Shown here piece after piece: positions 41,533-50,033 of a stretch of 64,000 bases of DNA. The stretch is from Winogradskyella jejuensis. Lineage in GTDB: Bacteria; Bacteroidota; Bacteroidia; Flavobacteriales; Flavobacteriaceae. The DNA lies in NCBI RefSeq assembly GCF_900129745.1, contig NZ_FQWS01000001.1, positions 744,001-808,000 on the forward strand, in the 5' to 3' direction. Position numbers and translations under genes: made by a program. Positions within the stretch are counted from its first letter, which is position 1, and the number at the start of each line of letters is the position of its first letter. Below the pieces are notes generated by a model. The model had not been told where the DNA came from, made no database searches, and saw only the letters and a list, made by a program, of their open reading frames with translations.

Positions 41533-42540
41533 ATGAAACGCAGAAAATTTTTAAAGAATGCATCGTTAACAGGAGTTGGAATTGCTGTTGGCTCATCTAT
41601 CGTATCGTGTGATGATGCTGCCCAAGGTAAACCCATTCCACCAAAAATTAATTCTGAATCCAAAACGGTTTTACCTGTCGTCGTTGCCACGTGGCACGTT
41701 GAAGAAGCAACCGCTAAAGCGATGGACGTATTACAATCTGGAGGTACGGCACTCGATGCTGTAGAACAAGGCTGCAAAATAGAAGAAGCCAACGAAAAAG
41801 GACAATCTGTGGGTAAAGGCGGTTTACCAGACCGAGAAGGTAATGTGACTCTTGATGCTTGTATAATGGACGACAAAGGGAATTGTGGTGCTGTAGTCTA
41901 TTTAAAAGATATTAAACATGCGGTTTCTGTTGCCAGAAAAGTCATGGAAGATACACCTCACGTGATGCTTGCTGGTGAAGGCGCAAAACAATTTGCTTTA
42001 GAAAGTGGATTTGAAGCTGAAGACCTATTAACCGAAGCTTCTAAAAAAGCTTGGGAGAAATGGAAAATTGAAGCGAAATATAAACCTATTATTAATATCG
42101 AAAACCATGATACTATAGGCATGCTCGCCGTTGATAAAAATGGAACTATTTCTGGAGCTTGTACCACAAGTGGCTTGGCCTATAAAATGAATGGCCGCAT
42201 AGGTGACTCTCCAATTATAGGTTCAGGATTATTTGTAGATAACGAAGTTGGTGGTGCTACTGCTACGGGACTTGGTGAAGAAGTTGTAAAAACTGTTGGA
42301 AGTTTTTTAATTGTAGAACTCATGCGTCAAGGTAAAACTCCACAAGAGGCATGTGAAGAAGCTATTGGGCGTATAGTAAACAAACCAGGAAAAGACTATA
42401 AAGATTTTCAGATTGGCTACATCGCAGTTAACAAAAAAGGTGAAACAGGTTGCTACTCCATCCATCAGTATTTTAGTATGACCAAATACCAAGATGGCGA
42501 AAACAAGCAGATACAGTCAGATTTTTTTAATAAGGCCTAA
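41533..42540 (+). CDS. Glycosylasparaginase (N4-(beta-N-acetylglucosaminyl)-L-asparaginase), Tat-exported
   Basis: This Ntn hydrolase cleaves the bond between GlcNAc and asparagine left after N-glycan trimming. The 335 residues begin with a twin-arginine signal (MKRRKFLKNASLTGVGIAVG) and a lipobox-like SIVSCDD. The enzyme family self-cleaves before a threonine. The expected site is present in ENHDTIGMLAV, where Asp-Thr matches the bond cut in the flavobacterial enzyme. Also conserved are GGTALDAVEQGC in the alpha chain and IIGSGLFVDNEVGGATATGL in the beta chain. It is the last plus-strand gene of the glycan block and gives the strongest reason to read that block as an N-glycoprotein degradation locus. 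Confidence 0.92.
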   Translation: MKRRKFLKNASLTGVGIAVGSSIVSCDDAAQGKPIPPKINSESKTVLPVVVATWHVEEATAKAMDVLQSGGTALDAVEQGCKIEEANEKGQSVGKGGLPDREGNVTLDACIMDDKGNCGAVVYLKDIKHAVSVARKVMEDTPHVMLAGEGAKQFALESGFEAEDLLTEASKKAWEKWKIEAKYKPIINIENHDTIGMLAVDKNGTISGACTTSGLAYKMNGRIGDSPIIGSGLFVDNEVGGATATGLGEEVVKTVGSFLIVELMRQGKTPQEACEEAIGRIVNKPGKDYKDFQIGYIAVNKKGETGCYSIHQYFSMTKYQDGENKQIQSDFFNKA

Positions 42541-42824: not shown

Positions 42825-44735
42825 ATGCATTTTAGACTTTTTTTTATCGCCATAGTACTAGTTTCCTCAGTTGTGTTTCCACAAAATACTACTCAGAAAA
42901 CTATAGATAGTATTCTTACTATTGATGATGATAAACAAAATGAATTTAAAAAATTACTGAGAAAAATAGACCAACTGCCAAGTAAAGAATCTATTGAAAA
43001 GTTCAAATATATTGACGCTTCGATTAAAGATAACGACTCATTACGGCTATACAACTATATGTACTATACAAGTACATTATTACGTAACGGTAAAAATAGT
43101 GAAGCACTAAAGGTAAACACCAAAGGCCTAGCAATGGCAAAACGTTACAATTGGCCTTATTTTCTTTTTGAATACTATCAAATGCGTGCTAACATTTTTG
43201 ATGATAAAGCTGTTTTAGATTCTACTTTATTTTACATCAATAAAGCTGAAGATGTCATAAGCAAAAATAAAAAAAAACTTGGCCATGCTATGGCTAGAAT
43301 TTACTTTCAGCGTGCTTTATTAGAACAAAAATTGGGACATCCAGAAAAAGAAGATGCCTACATAGAAAAAATTGCAGATGTTGTTTTTGAGTATCCAAAT
43401 AACCAACAGAGCGCATTCTATTTGACCTCGATAGTTTATCACTTTAAAACACGGAAAAACTACGCTAAACATGCTTACTATGCTCAGAAACTAAAAGCTT
43501 TTTATTTAAAAAGAGACGGGTTTAATTCACCTAAAGCCCATGAGTCGCTTTCCTCTATGCTACAAATGGACAATACTGATGAGCAAATAAAAGAGCTAAA
43601 ACAAACGCTTAAAAATAATGACAGCTTAAAATACGATTTCCTATTGTCTCAAATCGCTAATACTATAGGTGCAAAACTATTAGAAGCAGGCAAGACTAAA
43701 GAAGCTATAACATACTTTAAGAAATCCCTTAGTTATAACGATAAAAACATAAGTCCTTACAGTAAAATTATTTCTTACGAAAATTTACATCGTGCCTTCT
43801 ACGATTCAAAAGATTATGTAAAAGCTATAGAAACACTTAGAGCAAAGGAAACTATTGTTAATACCATAAGACAAAACGAAACACTAGAAAGAGTTGAGGA
43901 ATTAGAAGTCAGATACGAGGCTGAAAAAAAAGCCAATGAAGTTCAACTTTTAAAAGCAGAAAATACTACTAAAGAAAAACAAAGGCAACTCTATCTTATA
44001 TTGGCAATATCTGGACTTATCATAGCCACACTCTTTGCTTATTTTGCTTATAAATTCAAAAAACAAAAACATGTATTATCAATTCAAAAGAAAGAATTAG
44101 AAAAAACAATCAATGAGAAAAATGTTCTGTTCAAAGAAATTCATCATCGCGTAAAAAATAGTCTTCAGGTGGTTTCGTCACTTTTATTTTTACAGTCTCA
44201 AAACATTGATGATACTCAAGCAAAAGAAGCTATAAAAGATGCTCAAAACCGCGTACGTTCTTTAACCTTGATTCATCAAAAGCTGTACAGTAAAAAACAC
44301 TTAGTAGGTGTTGAAACAAAAGATTATATCACAGATTTAACACAAGACATTTTTAGCAGTCATCAATTAGAATCACAAAACATAAATACCGAGTTAGATA
44401 TAGAAAACCTTGTTTTAAGTATAGATACTTTATCCCCAATCGGGCTTATTCTAAACGAGCTTATTACTAATGTTCTTAAGCACGCTTTTAAAGAAAACCA
44501 GGAGATTAATAACCTCCATATTAAGTTTTATAAAAATAACGGTTCTTTGATACTAAAAGTTGAAGATAATGGTGTTGGATACAACGCCAAAAATGGACGT
44601 AAAAATTCCTTTGGTCTTAAACTCATAAACTCACTTTCTAAAAAGTTAGATGCTACTTTTACAATAAAAGCTAAGACTGATAAAGGCACAGAAGCAAATT
44701 TGACAATTAATGATTTTGAAATTGTAAACAGTTAA
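42825..44735 (+). CDS. Sensor histidine kinase, TPR input region and HisKA_2 catalytic core
   Basis: The 636 residues comprise a signal peptide (LFFIAIVLVSSVVFPQ), a periplasmic helical region of about 350 residues with TPR-like units (for example AKTKEAITYFKKSLSY-type repeats near residue 290), and one membrane helix near residues 389-411 (LYLILAISGLIIATLFAYFA). A short coiled coil leads to the kinase core. The phosphorylation motif is EIHHRVKNSLQVVSSLL with His440 or His441, the HisKA_2 form. The ATPase domain shows LILNELITNVLKHAF (N box), VEDNGVGY (G1) and NSFGLKLINSL. The stop overlaps the start of the LytTR regulator by one base, so they are a cognate pair. Confidence 0.92.
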   Translation: MHFRLFFIAIVLVSSVVFPQNTTQKTIDSILTIDDDKQNEFKKLLRKIDQLPSKESIEKFKYIDASIKDNDSLRLYNYMYYTSTLLRNGKNSEALKVNTKGLAMAKRYNWPYFLFEYYQMRANIFDDKAVLDSTLFYINKAEDVISKNKKKLGHAMARIYFQRALLEQKLGHPEKEDAYIEKIADVVFEYPNNQQSAFYLTSIVYHFKTRKNYAKHAYYAQKLKAFYLKRDGFNSPKAHESLSSMLQMDNTDEQIKELKQTLKNNDSLKYDFLLSQIANTIGAKLLEAGKTKEAITYFKKSLSYNDKNISPYSKIISYENLHRAFYDSKDYVKAIETLRAKETIVNTIRQNETLERVEELEVRYEAEKKANEVQLLKAENTTKEKQRQLYLILAISGLIIATLFAYFAYKFKKQKHVLSIQKKELEKTINEKNVLFKEIHHRVKNSLQVVSSLLFLQSQNIDDTQAKEAIKDAQNRVRSLTLIHQKLYSKKHLVGVETKDYITDLTQDIFSSHQLESQNINTELDIENLVLSIDTLSPIGLILNELITNVLKHAFKENQEINNLHIKFYKNNGSLILKVEDNGVGYNAKNGRKNSFGLKLINSLSKKLDATFTIKAKTDKGTEANLTINDFEIVNS

Positions 44736-45451
44736 TGAATGTGTTAAAAATTCATATCGTTGAAGACGAACCTCTAATCGCAGAGACCATAAAGACTATT
44801 TTAGAAAATGAAAATCATACCATAACAGGTATAAGTTTAAGAGGTAAAGATGCCATTTTTGATATTGAAGCATTGAAACCAGATTTAGTACTGGTTGATA
44901 TTATGATAAAAGGTGATATGGATGGTGTAGATATCGTAAATCATTTTAAAAATAAACTAGATATCCCATTCATATATCTGACTTCTCTTTCTGATGAAAA
45001 AACTCTTGAGCGTGTTAAATCTACAAATCCATCAGGTTATATTGTAAAGCCATTTAATGAAAATACATTAATGGCAAATATTGAATTAGCTTACCATAAA
45101 TATCTCACTACACAATATCAACTTTCTGTAAATATTAAAAGTGATGCTTTTTTTATAAAGAATAAAGGAGAGCTTATTAAAGTTACCCAAAGCGATATCC
45201 TGTTTTTTGAAGCTTATGACAACTATTGTAATTTATATACATCAAAGAAAAAGTACTTACTTAGTTACACCTTAAAACGTATCGAAGAAAAGTTACCAAG
45301 TTCAAAATTTTTAAAAGTTCACCGTTCTTATATTATTAATTTCTCAAAGATTGATTCTATCCAAGATAGTTACATCTTCATAAACAAGCACAAAATCCCT
45401 TACAGCAAATCTCATAAAGATGAGCTCATGCAAAAGCTAAATTTGTTGTAA
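44735..45451 (+). CDS. Two-component response regulator, LytTR family
   Basis: The 238-residue protein has a receiver domain followed by a LytTR DNA-binding domain. The receiver shows the acidic pair in HIVEDEPLIAE, the phosphoacceptor Asp in LVLVDIMIKG, the threonine in FIYLTSLS and the lysine in YIVKPFNE. The LytTR domain covers about residues 140-238: ILFFEAYDNYCNLYTSKKKY, then FLKVHRSYIINFSKIDSI and the final DELMQKL. LytTR regulators bind paired direct repeats and often control secreted or surface proteins. The ATG overlaps the kinase stop (TAATG). The genes downstream, mostly encoding exported proteins, are natural targets, but no repeat pair could be assigned with confidence. Confidence 0.93.
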   Translation: MNVLKIHIVEDEPLIAETIKTILENENHTITGISLRGKDAIFDIEALKPDLVLVDIMIKGDMDGVDIVNHFKNKLDIPFIYLTSLSDEKTLERVKSTNPSGYIVKPFNENTLMANIELAYHKYLTTQYQLSVNIKSDAFFIKNKGELIKVTQSDILFFEAYDNYCNLYTSKKKYLLSYTLKRIEEKLPSSKFLKVHRSYIINFSKIDSIQDSYIFINKHKIPYSKSHKDELMQKLNLL

Positions 45452-45602
45452 TTGCATTAACCTAAATATTCATCCTATTCACTAAAAAAAACACAACACT
45501 CACCAAAAAGAATCCGTGAGAGCTACGTTGTAAGCTAATTTTATAGTGCTATTAATTCAAACTCGTCAATTGAGTTTCTTTAAACATTATAATATCTAGT
45601 TT
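45452..45602. other. Intergenic region between the LytTR regulator and the secreted-protein block
   Basis: Two short inverted repeats are visible: CTCAC/GTGAG at 45499-45520 with a 12-base loop, and AAACTC/GAGTTT at 45559-45577 with a 7-base loop. Neither has a T run, so they are not terminators. They could be regulator sites or RNA hairpins. No TAnnTTTG box was found. Confidence 0.4.
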
Positions 45603-46310
45603 ATGAAAATCAAATCAATTTTTGCTTTATTAATATTTGCTGTTCTTTCTATTTCCTGTGCATCAGACCAAGAACAAGAAGCATTTGCTCATATTGGCAA
45701 TTACTACAATGCTGAAGTTAACTTCACTAAAGGATTTTCTTCAAAAGTGGGTAAAGAAACAGAGAACTACATTGCACTGAAAATCAAAAACAGTCCCTAC
45801 GAAAAACGTATTAAAGAAGACCAGCTTTCAGTCTATGCAGCCACCCTTTTACTCGAAAATTTAAACGATGAAGAAATAGACAAGTACACACATATTAAAG
45901 TAAACTTCTTTCATGAAACTGATAGTGAAGAGAAAGCGGATTCACTTATCAGTTATAAAATCGAAACTATTAAGAACGTTTCTAGAAAGTCTCAAGTTTT
46001 CAAAAATACAGTTAATGCTTTGCTAAACGCCTCTGGAGTTGATGTTTTTAGAATGCTAGATGAAAAATATCGCGACCCTAAGCGAGAACAAGGTTTTGCG
46101 GAGGCTATTAATTCTATGAAAATAGAACGAAACGGTGTTAAAGCTATAAAACTATTAGGTGTAGAAGCCTTGGTAGACAAGACCACCAGAGAACGTTATT
46201 TAGGATATAATGGTGAGATAGCTTGGGGAAATAATACGAACTCCTATTTATCGGTAAGAACCTTTGAAGACCCTAAAAATGATGATATCATCTTTTTAAA
46301 TCTTAATTAA
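45603..46310 (+). CDS. Putative lipoprotein of unknown function
   Basis: No family recognised. The 235 residues start with a lipoprotein signal (FALLIFAVLSISCAS with the lipobox cysteine). The mature part is mixed helix and strand with many charged residues, including IKVNFFHETDSEEKADSLIS and QGFAEAINSMKIERNGVKAI. It is the first gene after the LytTR regulator, 151 bases away. The next gene begins eight bases after its stop, so the two are probably co-transcribed. Codon use and base composition look like those of the neighbours. Confidence 0.72.
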   Translation: MKIKSIFALLIFAVLSISCASDQEQEAFAHIGNYYNAEVNFTKGFSSKVGKETENYIALKIKNSPYEKRIKEDQLSVYAATLLLENLNDEEIDKYTHIKVNFFHETDSEEKADSLISYKIETIKNVSRKSQVFKNTVNALLNASGVDVFRMLDEKYRDPKREQGFAEAINSMKIERNGVKAIKLLGVEALVDKTTRERYLGYNGEIAWGNNTNSYLSVRTFEDPKNDDIIFLNLN

Positions 46311-46318
46311 TCTCTTAT

Positions 46319-46852
46319 ATGAAAACCAAACTAATTATTCTTGCACTTCTACTATCATCTCTTTCTATATATAGTCAGAAAGTAATCCAATACCAAGACG
46401 GAAATGACCTTTTTATTAAAGGTAATCTTAGCGAAGGAAAACCAATGACAGATCTTTCCTGGGCTTGGCAAAGTAATAATGCTTGTTTTCCTGAAACTCA
46501 AAAGAAAAAATTTACTGGTAACCACGTTTTGTACTATACAGATTTGCCAGTCTATTCCGAAATGGAGGTGACAGTAGTGCCAAAAGACCCAAGTAAAAAT
46601 TTCAGCATATATGCCTATCAAGTAGGCAAAGTATCGGAGAACAAACTAGTGCCTAATCTAAGCAGTTGTACACGTTGCGAAGCCGATTATAAATGGGATT
46701 ATAAAAGAAGAGGTAGAACTCAAGACCACACCAGAACTGTAAAAGATTTACTCGCCATCAGAAATCCTTTTCAAGTAGTTATAGGTGTTGTTGGTGCAAA
46801 TGGCTTAGTTGAAGGTGAATATGAGTTACATATAAAACTAAAATCTAGATAA
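46319..46852 (+). CDS. Exported protein of unknown function, probably beta-sandwich
   Basis: No family recognised with confidence. The 177 residues have a signal peptide (LIILALLLSSLSIYSQ). A predicted all-beta body contains four cysteines that could form disulfides (NNACFPE and SSCTRCEADYKW hold three of them or more). The C-terminal part, FQVVIGVVGANGLVEGEYEL, has the rhythm of pre-peptidase C-terminal type sandwich domains, but that is a weak impression. It lies eight bases after the lipoprotein gene and 40 before the next gene. The last residues, HIKLKSR, resemble the end of the small protein at 49617. Confidence 0.7.
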   Translation: MKTKLIILALLLSSLSIYSQKVIQYQDGNDLFIKGNLSEGKPMTDLSWAWQSNNACFPETQKKKFTGNHVLYYTDLPVYSEMEVTVVPKDPSKNFSIYAYQVGKVSENKLVPNLSSCTRCEADYKWDYKRRGRTQDHTRTVKDLLAIRNPFQVVIGVVGANGLVEGEYELHIKLKSR

Positions 46853-46892
46853 ACAAATACGGACTAATACTAAAAAAATAAAATATTTAAAC

Positions 46893-47657
46893 ATGAAAAA
46901 ATCAATTCTAATAATCACGCTCCTTATAGGCTTTTTATTAAGCACGACTCTAATGGCACAAGTTCAGATTTCTGGTAGTTCTTTAAATGGTATCGCTAAA
47001 CCAAAAGTAGAATGCTCGGTTAATGCAGGTTACGAGAAATTTAAAATTTTTGGTAATAAGAGTAAAAATTATACACTAGTTACCAAAAGTAAAAAAATTC
47101 AGGATTATACTTTCACATTTGTAAAAACTTCAGGAAAGGCTAAGGCCACATTCACCATATTCATAAATGGTGTAAAACAAGATAGTTGGGTTTTTGAAGG
47201 CAAAATAGCCAGAGGCGAAAAAAACATAGAGCTTAACGATGTAGCAGGAAAAGAGGTGACATTAATCATTAAAAATAATTCAGCAACCAATAAAATTGAA
47301 GGTAATTACAGAGGTACTTTTGAGTCTAATAGCATGCTTTACGATTACTATAATCCAAAAAAATCAGATGCTACCATAGTTAGGAGAATAACAAACACCC
47401 TTGAACAGCAACTTATTAAACCTTGTAACAGAAAAGGCACAATAGAGGTTGTACGGGTAAGCGGAAACTCAAGCGCAGAAATAGTTGTAGTGCATGGTAC
47501 TAATGTTATTAAAGTAGTTGATATGGCTGCTAATCAAGGCTCAAGAAGAATAAACCTTACCAACCTACCCAACAATAATAATCAGCTAAAATTACAAATT
47601 AGAAATATTGAAACTAATAAATTTTTGAAGGCACGTATTGGTGCTTGGTTTAATTAG
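46893..47657 (+). CDS. Exported protein of unknown function with two related beta domains
   Basis: The 254-residue product has a signal peptide (LIGFLLSTTLMAQ) and no family I can name. Residues 73-143 and 183-253 look like diverged copies of one domain. FVKTSGKAKATFTIFINGV lines up with VVRVSGNSSAEIVVVHGTN. NIELNDVAGKEVTLIIKNNS lines up with INLTNLPNNNNQLKLQIRNI, and both copies end in aromatic strands (GNYRGTF and RIGAWF). The pattern suggests two small beta sandwiches joined by a helix. It is 40 bases after the preceding gene and 31 before the next, within one apparent operon. Confidence 0.72.
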   Translation: MKKSILIITLLIGFLLSTTLMAQVQISGSSLNGIAKPKVECSVNAGYEKFKIFGNKSKNYTLVTKSKKIQDYTFTFVKTSGKAKATFTIFINGVKQDSWVFEGKIARGEKNIELNDVAGKEVTLIIKNNSATNKIEGNYRGTFESNSMLYDYYNPKKSDATIVRRITNTLEQQLIKPCNRKGTIEVVRVSGNSSAEIVVVHGTNVIKVVDMAANQGSRRINLTNLPNNNNQLKLQIRNIETNKFLKARIGAWFN

Positions 47658-47688
47658 TAGAACACTATAAGTAATAATTTTCCATGAT

Positions 47689-48042
47689 ATGAAAATAAAA
47701 ATAAAACCAGAGGCTATTGATATTAATCAATTAAAAAAATTATTGGAAAAACACTTCTCAGGAACTTATACATTAAATAAACGAAATAAAAATTTATTAG
47801 CCGTTGCAGCTACAAAAACCATTGGCGCAACTGTATTGGTCCAAAAAAAGGTAATCATAGTCAACGGGAATTTTCCAACCATGGGAAGGCAGGTAATATT
47901 TACAATTCTACTATTCTCATTGGGTATTATACCTCCATTATTAGTGTACTTTTTATTCTATCATAAAAAAATGAAAGCTGTAGAGAAAGACGTTGTAGAG
48001 TTCATTACATCTAAATATACAGACCAGCTAAAAACAAATTAA
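47689..48042 (+). CDS. Small membrane protein of unknown function
   Basis: No family recognised. The 117 residues have no signal peptide. A basic N-terminal region of about 65 residues (DINQLKKLLEKHFSGTYTLN, then AVAATKTIGATVLVQKKVII) looks like a small alpha/beta domain. One or two membrane helices follow (QVIFTILLFSLGIIPPLLVY), and then a charged tail. It is the only member of the secreted-protein block that appears to face the cytoplasm. It begins 31 bases after the preceding stop and ends 25 bases before the T9SS cargo gene. Confidence 0.68.
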   Translation: MKIKIKPEAIDINQLKKLLEKHFSGTYTLNKRNKNLLAVAATKTIGATVLVQKKVIIVNGNFPTMGRQVIFTILLFSLGIIPPLLVYFLFYHKKMKAVEKDVVEFITSKYTDQLKTN

Positions 48043-48067
48043 TAATCAAATCTTTTAAATGTATCTC

Positions 48068-49594
48068 ATGAAAACAATTCTACATTACTTAAAATATTTA
48101 TTATCTATTGCAATTTTTCAAAGCATGTTATTTTCAAACTCACAGGTTTATAATGGTAGCCGTGTGTTTATTTCAGAATTTCATTATGACAATGTAGGAT
48201 CTGATGTTAATGAGTTTGTAGAAATTTGTAGCTTAAGTGGTTATTCCTTAGACGGTTGGCAGATTGAGTTGGTAAACGGATCAAGTAGTACCGTTTATGA
48301 CACACGGGAGTTAACAGGACTTGGTACCTCTTTTCCAAATCGTGTGGGAGCGACAAAAGCAGAAATCTTTACTAGTCTACAGAATGGTGCCCCAGATGGC
48401 ATTGTATTAAGAGCACCAGATGGCTCCATACACGAATTTATCAGTTATGAAGGCACTATAGTTTTTGAAGGTGTTGCCTCAACAAACGTAGGAGTCGCAG
48501 AAAATAGTGCTACTCCTGTAGGTACAAGCATACAAAATAATGGATTTGGAGATTGGACATCAGGCAATACCGAAACTTCAGGATTGGAAAACAGTAATAA
48601 TTTATGGTTACCGACTCAAGCCTATCAACTGTTTTGGAATGGTACAGATAATAACTGGAATAGTAGAAACTGGAATCTTTGGGACAGAATAACAGACCCT
48701 AATAATGCACTAGGGCAAGGACCTGGCATATACGATTTTAGTATTGTAAACATTAACTCTGGAAACGTTGTTATCGATTACTATTTAGATAATAATAACC
48801 CAAATGCTATAACTGGATATGTTGATAATGTTGAAACCACTATACAAACCTTGTATTTAAATGGAGGTACTTTAACAGTAACGGATACAGGCAGGTTAGA
48901 TGTTTCTAATAATGTAGAAAATGATGGTACGCTAATTATAAACGGAACATTTAATGTACCTAATGTATTAACAAATACAGGCACTTTAGTACTCGGAAGT
49001 GATTTAATATCAGCATCAAATCTTACAAATAGTGGTATTGTAAATATTGGTGACAATACGTTTACGCAAGCTACCGTGACTGGAAATATATCAACCAATA
49101 CATCAATTAATTTTGAAATAGAAGATAATGTTAGTAAAGATTTTTTAATTGTGAATGGTGATTTGGAATTAGGAGGAACATTAAATTTAACTGTAGATGC
49201 CAATTATAATCCGCCAACTGGTACAACAATCACGTTGATGACCTACTCAGGAAATTTAACAGGAACTTTTGCAACCACAAATATTCCTATGGATTGGACT
49301 TTAGATTTAAGCACACCTAATGAGATAAATGTAGTTAAAAATTCTACTTTAAGTATTGAAAGTGACTTTTTGAACAATACCTTGAGTATTTACCCAAACC
49401 CAACGACAGATAATATTACTATTTCTAGTAGTACTTCAATTAATAGCATATCCGTTTTTAATTTACTTGGTCAACAGGTCATTAACACATCTCAAACAGA
49501 GAAGATAGACATAAGTCATTTAGAATCGGGTATCTATTTGGTTAAGTTGAAAACAGAATCTGGTGAACAAACAAAACGAATTATAAAAGAATAG
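48068..49594 (+). CDS. Lamin-tail-domain protein with a type IX secretion sorting domain
   Basis: About 508 residues: a signal peptide, a lamin tail domain (VFISEFHYDNVGSDVNEFVE through GIVLRAPDGSIHEFISYEG), and a repetitive beta-rich middle in which short units such as NVENDGTLIINGTFNVPNVL suggest a beta-helix. It ends in a type A T9SS C-terminal sorting domain, with SIYPNPTTDNITISS, VFNLLGQQV and LESGIYLVKLKTESGEQTKR. It is therefore exported by the SprA-containing type IX system to the cell surface or medium. Bacterial lamin-tail domains occur with nucleases and adhesins, but no catalytic domain is visible here. The ATG at 48068 gives the better signal peptide than the one at 48059. Confidence 0.88.
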   Translation: MKTILHYLKYLLSIAIFQSMLFSNSQVYNGSRVFISEFHYDNVGSDVNEFVEICSLSGYSLDGWQIELVNGSSSTVYDTRELTGLGTSFPNRVGATKAEIFTSLQNGAPDGIVLRAPDGSIHEFISYEGTIVFEGVASTNVGVAENSATPVGTSIQNNGFGDWTSGNTETSGLENSNNLWLPTQAYQLFWNGTDNNWNSRNWNLWDRITDPNNALGQGPGIYDFSIVNINSGNVVIDYYLDNNNPNAITGYVDNVETTIQTLYLNGGTLTVTDTGRLDVSNNVENDGTLIINGTFNVPNVLTNTGTLVLGSDLISASNLTNSGIVNIGDNTFTQATVTGNISTNTSINFEIEDNVSKDFLIVNGDLELGGTLNLTVDANYNPPTGTTITLMTYSGNLTGTFATTNIPMDWTLDLSTPNEINVVKNSTLSIESDFLNNTLSIYPNPTTDNITISSSTSINSISVFNLLGQQVINTSQTEKIDISHLESGIYLVKLKTESGEQTKRIIKE

Positions 49595-49616
49595 TAAACA
49601 AATAAAGTCTAGCCTT

Positions 49617-50033
49617 ATGAAATTAATTATTAAAACTATTTGCTATTTATTTTTAATCAATGTATGCCTATCTCAAACTAATAAAGGGCATTCGAAAAGC
49701 AATCAAAATTTACAAACAACAATTGATAATGTAAATATCGGTGAAATGAAATTGATTACAGGAACAATGGATGGCAGCGGCACAACATCGATAAATTATC
49801 CAAGAGGCTTTAATTGGGAAAACAGTTATGTACTGAGTTTCAAAATATTATCTAATACTGGTCATAGAGGCGGAATAAGTTGGTATACCTCTTTAGGTAA
49901 TTATACCAAAGGTGATAATCAGGCAGTGTATGTAAACCTAAAAAATGATAATACTATATTGATAAAAGCTTCACACACTCAATACGTTGGTGTTAAATAT
50001 TCTCTAGTTCTAATGAAATTAAAGACCAGGTAA
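49617..50033 (+). CDS. Small exported protein of unknown function
   Basis: The 138 residues have a signal peptide (TICYLFLINVCLSQ) and then a beta-rich body. The stretch INYPRGFNWENSYVLSFKIL, and the ending YVGVKYSLVLMKLKTR, resemble the end domains of phage tail or cell-surface fibre proteins, where strands repeat with aromatic residues. This is an impression, not a family match. It is the last gene of the apparent secreted-protein operon, 22 bases after the T9SS cargo. It converges with the aldehyde dehydrogenase gene. No terminator hairpin was found in the 94 bases between the stops. Confidence 0.68.
   Translation: MKLIIKTICYLFLINVCLSQTNKGHSKSNQNLQTTIDNVNIGEMKLITGTMDGSGTTSINYPRGFNWENSYVLSFKILSNTGHRGGISWYTSLGNYTKGDNQAVYVNLKNDNTILIKASHTQYVGVKYSLVLMKLKTR

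Follow-up and report, generated by a model that had tools for sequence, protein, structure and literature searches.

What brings a sensor kinase, a LytTR-type response regulator and six further genes, five of them without any curated family, together at a single chromosomal site of the marine bacterium Winogradskyella jejuensis, and does the regulator govern the genes that follow it? We addressed this question in a window of 64,000 nucleotides (NCBI RefSeq assembly GCF_900129745.1, contig NZ_FQWS01000001.1, positions 744,001 to 808,000, forward strand), in which the six genes, P1 to P6, lie directly downstream of the two-component pair. Comparison with related genomes leads us to interpret the locus as an exchangeable surface-protein slot under LytTR control, in which P1–P4 would be accessory proteins of the envelope or the cell surface, a reading to which we give a probability of about 0.6. 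Kinase, regulator and cargo jointly form a presence/absence insert at one site, an aspect missed by a preliminary description of the block made from this sequence alone. By sequence, the kinase, the regulator and a LytTR-linked element of repeats and promoter occupy this site in some genomes and are lacking in close kin, and the genes behind the element vary between genomes but are of exported or surface type. The features of the locus are the following:

41533..42540, forward strand: left flank, asparaginase-like gene, which we take to be of the isoaspartyl peptidase/glycosylasparaginase type (match in 54 of 68 genus genomes, E<=1e-80)
42825..44735, forward strand: TPR-HisKA_2 sensor kinase (Pfam TPR; HisKA_2, 1.6e-25; HATPase_c, 1.7e-6)
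44735..45451, forward strand: response regulator with receiver and LytTR domains (Pfam Response_reg, 7.1e-19; LytTR, 4e-22)
45456-45465, 45477-45486 and 45498-45507, forward strand: three direct repeats of ~10 bp with a 21-bp period, presumed LytTR operator
45476..45561, forward strand: repeat-plus-promoter element (profile match of 43.1 bits, E 4.9e-11)
45536-45543: −7-like box TAATTTTA
45548-45556: conserved GCTATTAAT
45603..46310, forward strand: P1, lipoprotein of 235 amino acids, C-terminal half NTF2-like in its model
46319..46852, forward strand: P2, exported protein of 177 amino acids, PPC-like beta-sandwich in its model, invariant C56, C117 and C120
46893..47657, forward strand: P3, exported protein of 254 amino acids, with relatives adjoining P2 in other genera
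47689..48042, forward strand: P4, small membrane protein of 117 amino acids
48059..49594, forward strand: P5, cargo of the type IX secretion system (T9SS), 511 amino acids (Por_Secre_tail, 3.5e-17)
49617..50033, forward strand: P6, exported, fibre-end-like protein of 138 amino acids
50128..51540, reverse strand: right flank, aldehyde dehydrogenase family gene (match in 67 of 68 genus genomes, E<=1e-120)

The unit from the kinase to P6 measures 7.6 kb and is flanked by the convergent asparaginase-like and aldehyde dehydrogenase genes. All six open reading frames (ORFs) P1–P6 are on the forward strand, with intergenic gaps of 8, 40, 31, 16 and 22 bp, and 151 bp separate the end of the regulator (45451) from the start of P1; the coordinates agree with the preliminary description of six genes in one direction, 8–40 bp apart, behind a kinase and a LytTR regulator. 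These are not chance ORFs, because the same order, kinase-regulator-P1-P2-P3-P4, is kept in Winogradskyella psychrotolerans (G224), at identities of 62, 82, 44, 78, 45 and 57%, respectively. In the window, the insert consists of kinase, regulator and P1–P6 and has no other gene; as to self-mobility, the inserts of other genomes were examined by their ORF starts only, and no family search for integrases was made.

A presence/absence slot between two convergent genes

Among 68 genomes of the genus, 52 have both flanking genes on one contig, and our slot counts refer to these; two others have the flanks on different contigs, 13 have no match to the left flank and one (G245) matches neither. The flanking genes are convergent in 52 of 52. 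The slot is empty in 35 of them, with 1–196 bp between the matched coding parts (2 or 5 bp in 29 of the 35, stop codons excluded), and filled in 17, including the window, with 3.9–15.9 kb between the flanks. All 17 filled slots contain a TPR/HisKA_2-type kinase and a regulator (both detected by tblastn) as well as surface-type ORFs, the kind of cargo varying from genome to genome. Five of the 13 genomes without a left-flank match are also filled beside the aldehyde dehydrogenase gene (G157, G243, G254, G207, G225), and seven show ordinary neighbours. G215 (L177), likewise without the left flank, carries beside this gene another LytTR pair, its regulator of 27% and its kinase of 24% identity, accompanied by small exported or lipoprotein-like genes. 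The window's kinase was matched in 19 of the 68 genomes (E<=1e-60).

The filled sites total 22, of which 17 have a LytTR-type unit (G247 and G232 together with a unit of the other type) and five have a LuxR-type unit only (G219, G231, G257, G242, G241), with a regulator that resembles the receiver-GerE protein found in G247. It was in that one regulator that a GerE domain was identified, and the other sites were assigned to this type by similarity to it. Cargo comprises S74-chaperone fibres (G217, G247, G243, G157), a YadA-head fibre (G221) and, in W. psychrotolerans, P1–P4 plus T9SS proteins resembling leucine-rich repeat (LRR) proteins (by eye, with LRR_4 found in a related protein of L054). 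Differing cargo even stands behind regulators 80–84% identical to that of the window (G221, G217, G224, G243). In G217, G243 and G224, an ORF of 65–69 amino acids, alike in sequence in all three, separates the LytTR regulator from the cargo (L154 11255, L158 13618, L190 14583); no such ORF is present at this place in the window. A general rule that S74 fibres stand beside LytTR genes was rejected: six genomes searched gave 15 S74 matches in five of them (none in G000). Four of the matches are at the slot, where three have a LytTR gene as neighbour and the one in G231 stands with the other type of regulator; the remaining matches are not close to a LytTR gene in a comparison of the two lists by eye.

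A quick tree based on InfB covers 61 genomes, of which 20 are filled and 41 empty; it leaves out G215, G261, G227, G245 and G246, as well as G232 and G247, where InfB had no match. On this tree the distribution requires at least 13 changes of state, or 11 if only starred branches are counted. The filled state is somewhat clustered, since shuffled labels need 17 changes on average, and the tree does not distinguish gains from losses. Within its clade of nine genomes W. jejuensis alone is filled, the sister genome G263 being empty.

Repeats and a promoter-like stretch behind the LytTR regulator

Directly behind the regulator gene lie the three repeats ATTAACCTAA, ATTCACTAAA and ACTCACCAAA, followed by TAATTTTA and GCTATTAAT; repeats and promoter-like stretch together span 45456-45561. 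The period and position of the element appear to fit those of known LytTR operators. According to PMC6193735, LytTR proteins bind direct repeats 11–13 bp apart upstream of promoters and show autoregulation, and PMC4227749 places the AgrA repeats near −60; the centre of the repeat pair 45477-45507 is found ~56 bp before the presumed start. The window box differs from the sigma A −7 box in its last base, given that the Flavobacterium consensus is TAnnTTTG (PMC9723704).

The window repeat triple reaches a p value of ~0.02 in a within-sequence shuffle. An element profile was built from 22 site copies, with the window, G200 and G216 outside the training set, and it has no other match in the window at E<=10. 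Of 18 regulator-cargo junctions in LytTR-type units, 14 have a profile match below 1e-9, 12 of these 14 strong matches having been part of the training set. The pattern YTYACTAWA-N11-13-YTYACYAAA occurs 64 times in the 68 genomes, 36 of which have a match, and 35 of the 64 matches (17 genomes) are no more than 20 kb away from the aldehyde dehydrogenase gene of the site, where 0.2 would be expected if matches were spread evenly (calculated with 67 sites of 12 kb and 3.55 Mb per genome). At the site itself, the pattern is found in 16 of 17 LytTR-type genomes (not in G221), in none of the five that are LuxR-type only, and in G216. The element that separates regulator and P1 is met again at LytTR-type sites whose cargo is different, which upholds the earlier proposal that the block is tied to the two-component pair. 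Element copies also precede the kinase in G217, G228, G224, the second G243 unit and, weakly, G247, and part-elements lie between kinase and regulator at 11 sites.

G216, counted among the empty slots, retains one element copy (32 bits) in its 196-bp gap. In the InfB tree it stands beside the filled G210 (support 94, not starred), as expected of a loss leaving a scar, and the copy is possibly such a promoter scar.

The proteins of the block

P1–P4 and P6 have no usable family in Pfam, NCBIfam, PADLOC or PHROGs, so that five of the six genes are indeed as unrecognised as they had first seemed. P1 has a lipobox, seen by eye, and its Cys19 is the sole invariant column in 24 aligned relatives. P2, P3 and P6 possess signal-like N-termini (by eye), and P4 a hydrophobic stretch (also by eye), with seven relatives in the searched pool, two of these from the same genome. 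P5 ends in a type A sorting domain (PF18962, 3.5e-17; TIGR04183, 3.5e-17). The preliminary description was sound in that most products look exported (signal-like N-termini, lipobox, T9SS sorting domain), among them a lipoprotein, a small membrane protein and a T9SS cargo; the lamin tail that it had attributed to the latter is a likeness by eye only, with no lamin-tail (LTD) model matching P5 at E<=1. P6 shares 52% identity with the C-terminal end of an 882-amino-acid protein of G221, the YadA-head fibre.

Twenty relatives of P2 share 52–76% identity with the window copy and keep C56, C117 and C120 invariant. Its model (predicted local confidence, pLDDT, 82) is a beta-sandwich, in line, for this one of the three small exported proteins, with the beta fold announced for them. 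Among solved structures it comes closest to PPC/collagen-binding domains (Foldseek 2.6e-4; TM 0.42, normalised by query length) and to PliG; compared with the ColG domain it reaches Z 10.1 over 96 residues, at a root-mean-square deviation (rmsd) of 2.4, and with the lysozyme inhibitor PliG, Z 9.7. By sequence, P2 has no PPC match at E<=1, and its single match in PDB, at 0.85, was dismissed. The P1 model (pLDDT 90) resembles, in its C-terminal half, the NTF2-like DUF3887 (4hyz; Z 11.8, 103 residues, rmsd 2.3), with no Foldseek match at E<=0.001. P3 was not found in phage records.

Relatives in other genomes and genera

P1–P4 were found as a set in three genomes, whereas P5 and P6 are swapped for other surface-type proteins; together with the likeness of P6 to the fibre end of G221, this does not support the earlier view of the six genes as one module. 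Outside the genus, Flavobacteriaceae UBA5544 (G365, L054) carries P1-P2-P3-P4 close to an aldehyde dehydrogenase gene of 58% identity, and a different kinase and regulator on the far side. Relatives are sparse at E<=0.001, the window's genome included: P1 in 3 of 68 genus genomes (one of them, G238, weak and elsewhere) and in 13 of 199 family genomes, P3 in 2 of 68 genus genomes, and P2, searched at family level, in 21 of 397 family genomes.

A contig scan for P2 yielded 101 relatives and 79 retained loci (Flavobacteriaceae, Saprospiraceae, Cyclobacteriaceae and others), four of which (L058, L077, L080, L125) were dropped for want of a P2 ORF from the ATG-based caller. The 75 loci analysed include that of W. 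psychrotolerans, and many of their contigs are short. Within six genes of P2, 34 loci have a kinase of the TPR-HisKA_2 type, 34 have a receiver protein and 8 have a fibre head. The kinase is directly next to P2 in 22 loci, and all eight fibre-head genes are 1–3 genes downstream of P2 on the same strand. Proteins clustering with P3 appear in 27 loci, usually 1–3 genes upstream of P2. Other families are an extracytoplasmic function (ECF) sigma factor (26 loci), a TonB-dependent receptor (22) and FecR (21), domain names being taken from one example each, and a frequent order is ECF sigma, FecR, TonB-dependent receptor, P3 type, P2, kinase, regulator, P1. In other genera, too, relatives of P1, P2 and P3 are repeatedly linked to TPR kinases and to regulators, which likewise supports a tie between the block and the two-component pair. 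Some proteins contain P2 in tandem, with two to four domains each; relatives with three or four are those of L091, L128 and L114.

A possible mechanism and its alternatives

We propose that the kinase would use its TPR part, which is presumably periplasmic, to sense a cue from the envelope or from outside, and that the phosphorylated regulator would bind the repeats at 45456-45507 and activate a promoter with a start near 45548, P1–P6 being made as one operon. The lipoprotein P1 and the membrane protein P4 would act in the envelope, P2 and P3 might be small exported binding or assembly proteins, and P5, as T9SS cargo, and the fibre-end-like P6 would serve at the surface in adhesion or display; cargo would turn over by gain, loss and replacement of units. 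It is likely, on comparative grounds, that the regulator directly controls P1–P6, because the adjacency of regulator and cargo survives changes of cargo, the element goes with the LytTR regulator rather than with the site, and P2 relatives are kinase-linked elsewhere. That the cargo has a role in surface adhesion or display has, from its predicted features, about an even chance.

Several observations weigh against the reading of a LytTR-controlled surface-protein slot. Shuffle tests confined to one site at a time give weak results for most sites (p 0.005–0.57), for which reason the argument rests on counts across genomes. The pattern read backwards, used as a control, still gives 15 matches in 10 genomes, which were not mapped to places. 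The profile match at the G224 junction is only 0.068, and the junctions of G217, G221 and the second G243 unit have none below E 0.1; most copies of the −7-like box end in A instead of the consensus G. The kinase frame contains a stop in G217 and G228, and the LytTR frame is split in G228. The predicted folds of P1 and P2 give no function. Finally, the absence of linkage in relatives, named in the preliminary description as evidence that would speak against such a module, is partly what we see: 35 of the 75 P2 loci lack kinase, regulator and fibre head alike over a distance of six genes.

The block could instead be an ordinary accessory operon that merely adjoins the two-component pair and is regulated otherwise. 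The 151-bp gap before P1–P6, the failure of P5 and P6 to be retained with P1–P4 and the P1-like proteins without a window-related kinase within 20 kb (L017, L026, L028) all suit this explanation, which is nevertheless unlikely, as the two-component pair is present at 17 of 17 filled sites and the element between regulator and P1 follows the LytTR regulator across cargo. Slightly less likely still is that the repeats are chiefly recombination sites for the swapping of cargo and not operators. Copies occur at several junctions and also after the last cargo (G210, G205, G200, G229, G240 and, weakly, G257), where a promoter is not needed, a point that likewise counts against the slot as we read it, and a lone copy persists in the 196-bp gap of G216; against this, the repeats are at a constant distance upstream of a −7-like box and GCTATTAAT, stand behind LytTR genes and are absent from the five LuxR-type-only sites. 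Both roles of the repeats, operator and recombination site, could be true.

A module for nutrient sensing or uptake is improbable: it would be suggested by the ECF sigma, FecR and TonB-dependent receptor genes beside relatives of P1–P3, in the numbers given above for the P2 loci, but no such genes exist in the window block and the alternative cargo of the slot is fibre-like. An antagonism or defence locus (toxins, immunity, anti-phage functions) would share with ours a variable, mostly exported cargo of presence/absence type; we regard it as very improbable, since the regulator alone is matched in PADLOC, very weakly (0.0042), and the PHROG matches do not go beyond P4 at 0.034.

A more speculative extension of the surface-protein slot, to which we grant somewhat less than even odds, is that of a plug-in arrangement in which kinase, LytTR regulator and promoter element would be a constant socket, and any surface gene landing behind the element would immediately come under the control of the sensor. 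Element copies at the junctions between genes would allow cargo exchange by recombination, with scars such as that of G216, and the genus would exchange its surface and keep the switch; P1–P4 would be one specialised load, with a history of its own alongside TPR kinases across Bacteroidota.

Comparison with known systems

A two-component system accompanied by surface genes is of a known kind; what is unusual here is the exchangeable unit at one site and the undescribed families P1–P4. No description of this locus was found in the open-access literature among the titles and abstract openings of the matches listed. The likeness to LytTR systems such as AgrA and HdrR/BrsR (PMC4227749, PMC6193735) lies in the LytTR domain and in ~10-bp direct repeats ~11–12 bp apart upstream of a promoter, and the element copies before the kinase at some slot sites suggest autoregulation here too. 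Where LytTR regulatory systems have a membrane inhibitor, our locus has a TPR-HisKA_2 kinase, and the sequences of the repeats are different; moreover, regulator and varied surface cargo here constitute one presence/absence unit. P2, although its model resembles PPC/collagen-binding domains, has no PPC sequence match, stands alone or in tandem and bears three invariant cysteines. The sorting domain of P5 and the S74 or YadA-head cargo of related slots recall known T9SS cargo and fibres, whereas P1–P4 have neither. P3-P2-kinase-regulator-P1 relatives adjoin ECF sigma/FecR/TonB-dependent receptor loci in Altibacter lentus (L086) and Ulvibacter litoralis (L120), unlike the window block, from which such genes are absent.

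Five protein families without a function (P1–P4, P6) thereby gain a context, a likely regulator and a testable putative operator, and the cue of the TPR-HisKA_2 kinase becomes testable in a genus that is culturable and non-pathogenic. The slot marks a site where close kin differ by an entire sensor-plus-surface-protein unit. An element that served at once as operator and as exchange point would explain how surface proteins can be swapped without loss of expression control.

Minor observations at the slot and elsewhere

In G235 (L155, contig 10), whose slot is empty, a 45% identical kinase-regulator pair is located elsewhere, before a galactose-binding-like T9SS protein. An exported protein of 440–443 amino acids is slot cargo in G254 and G207 (L171 4349, L172 9206) and lies near P1 and P4 relatives in G176 (L024 7341); in all three it has a stretch resembling GRDWYVS, recognised by eye. 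The filled slot of G207 also contains a second, broken copy of the aldehyde dehydrogenase gene (L172 6617), as if the site had been duplicated.

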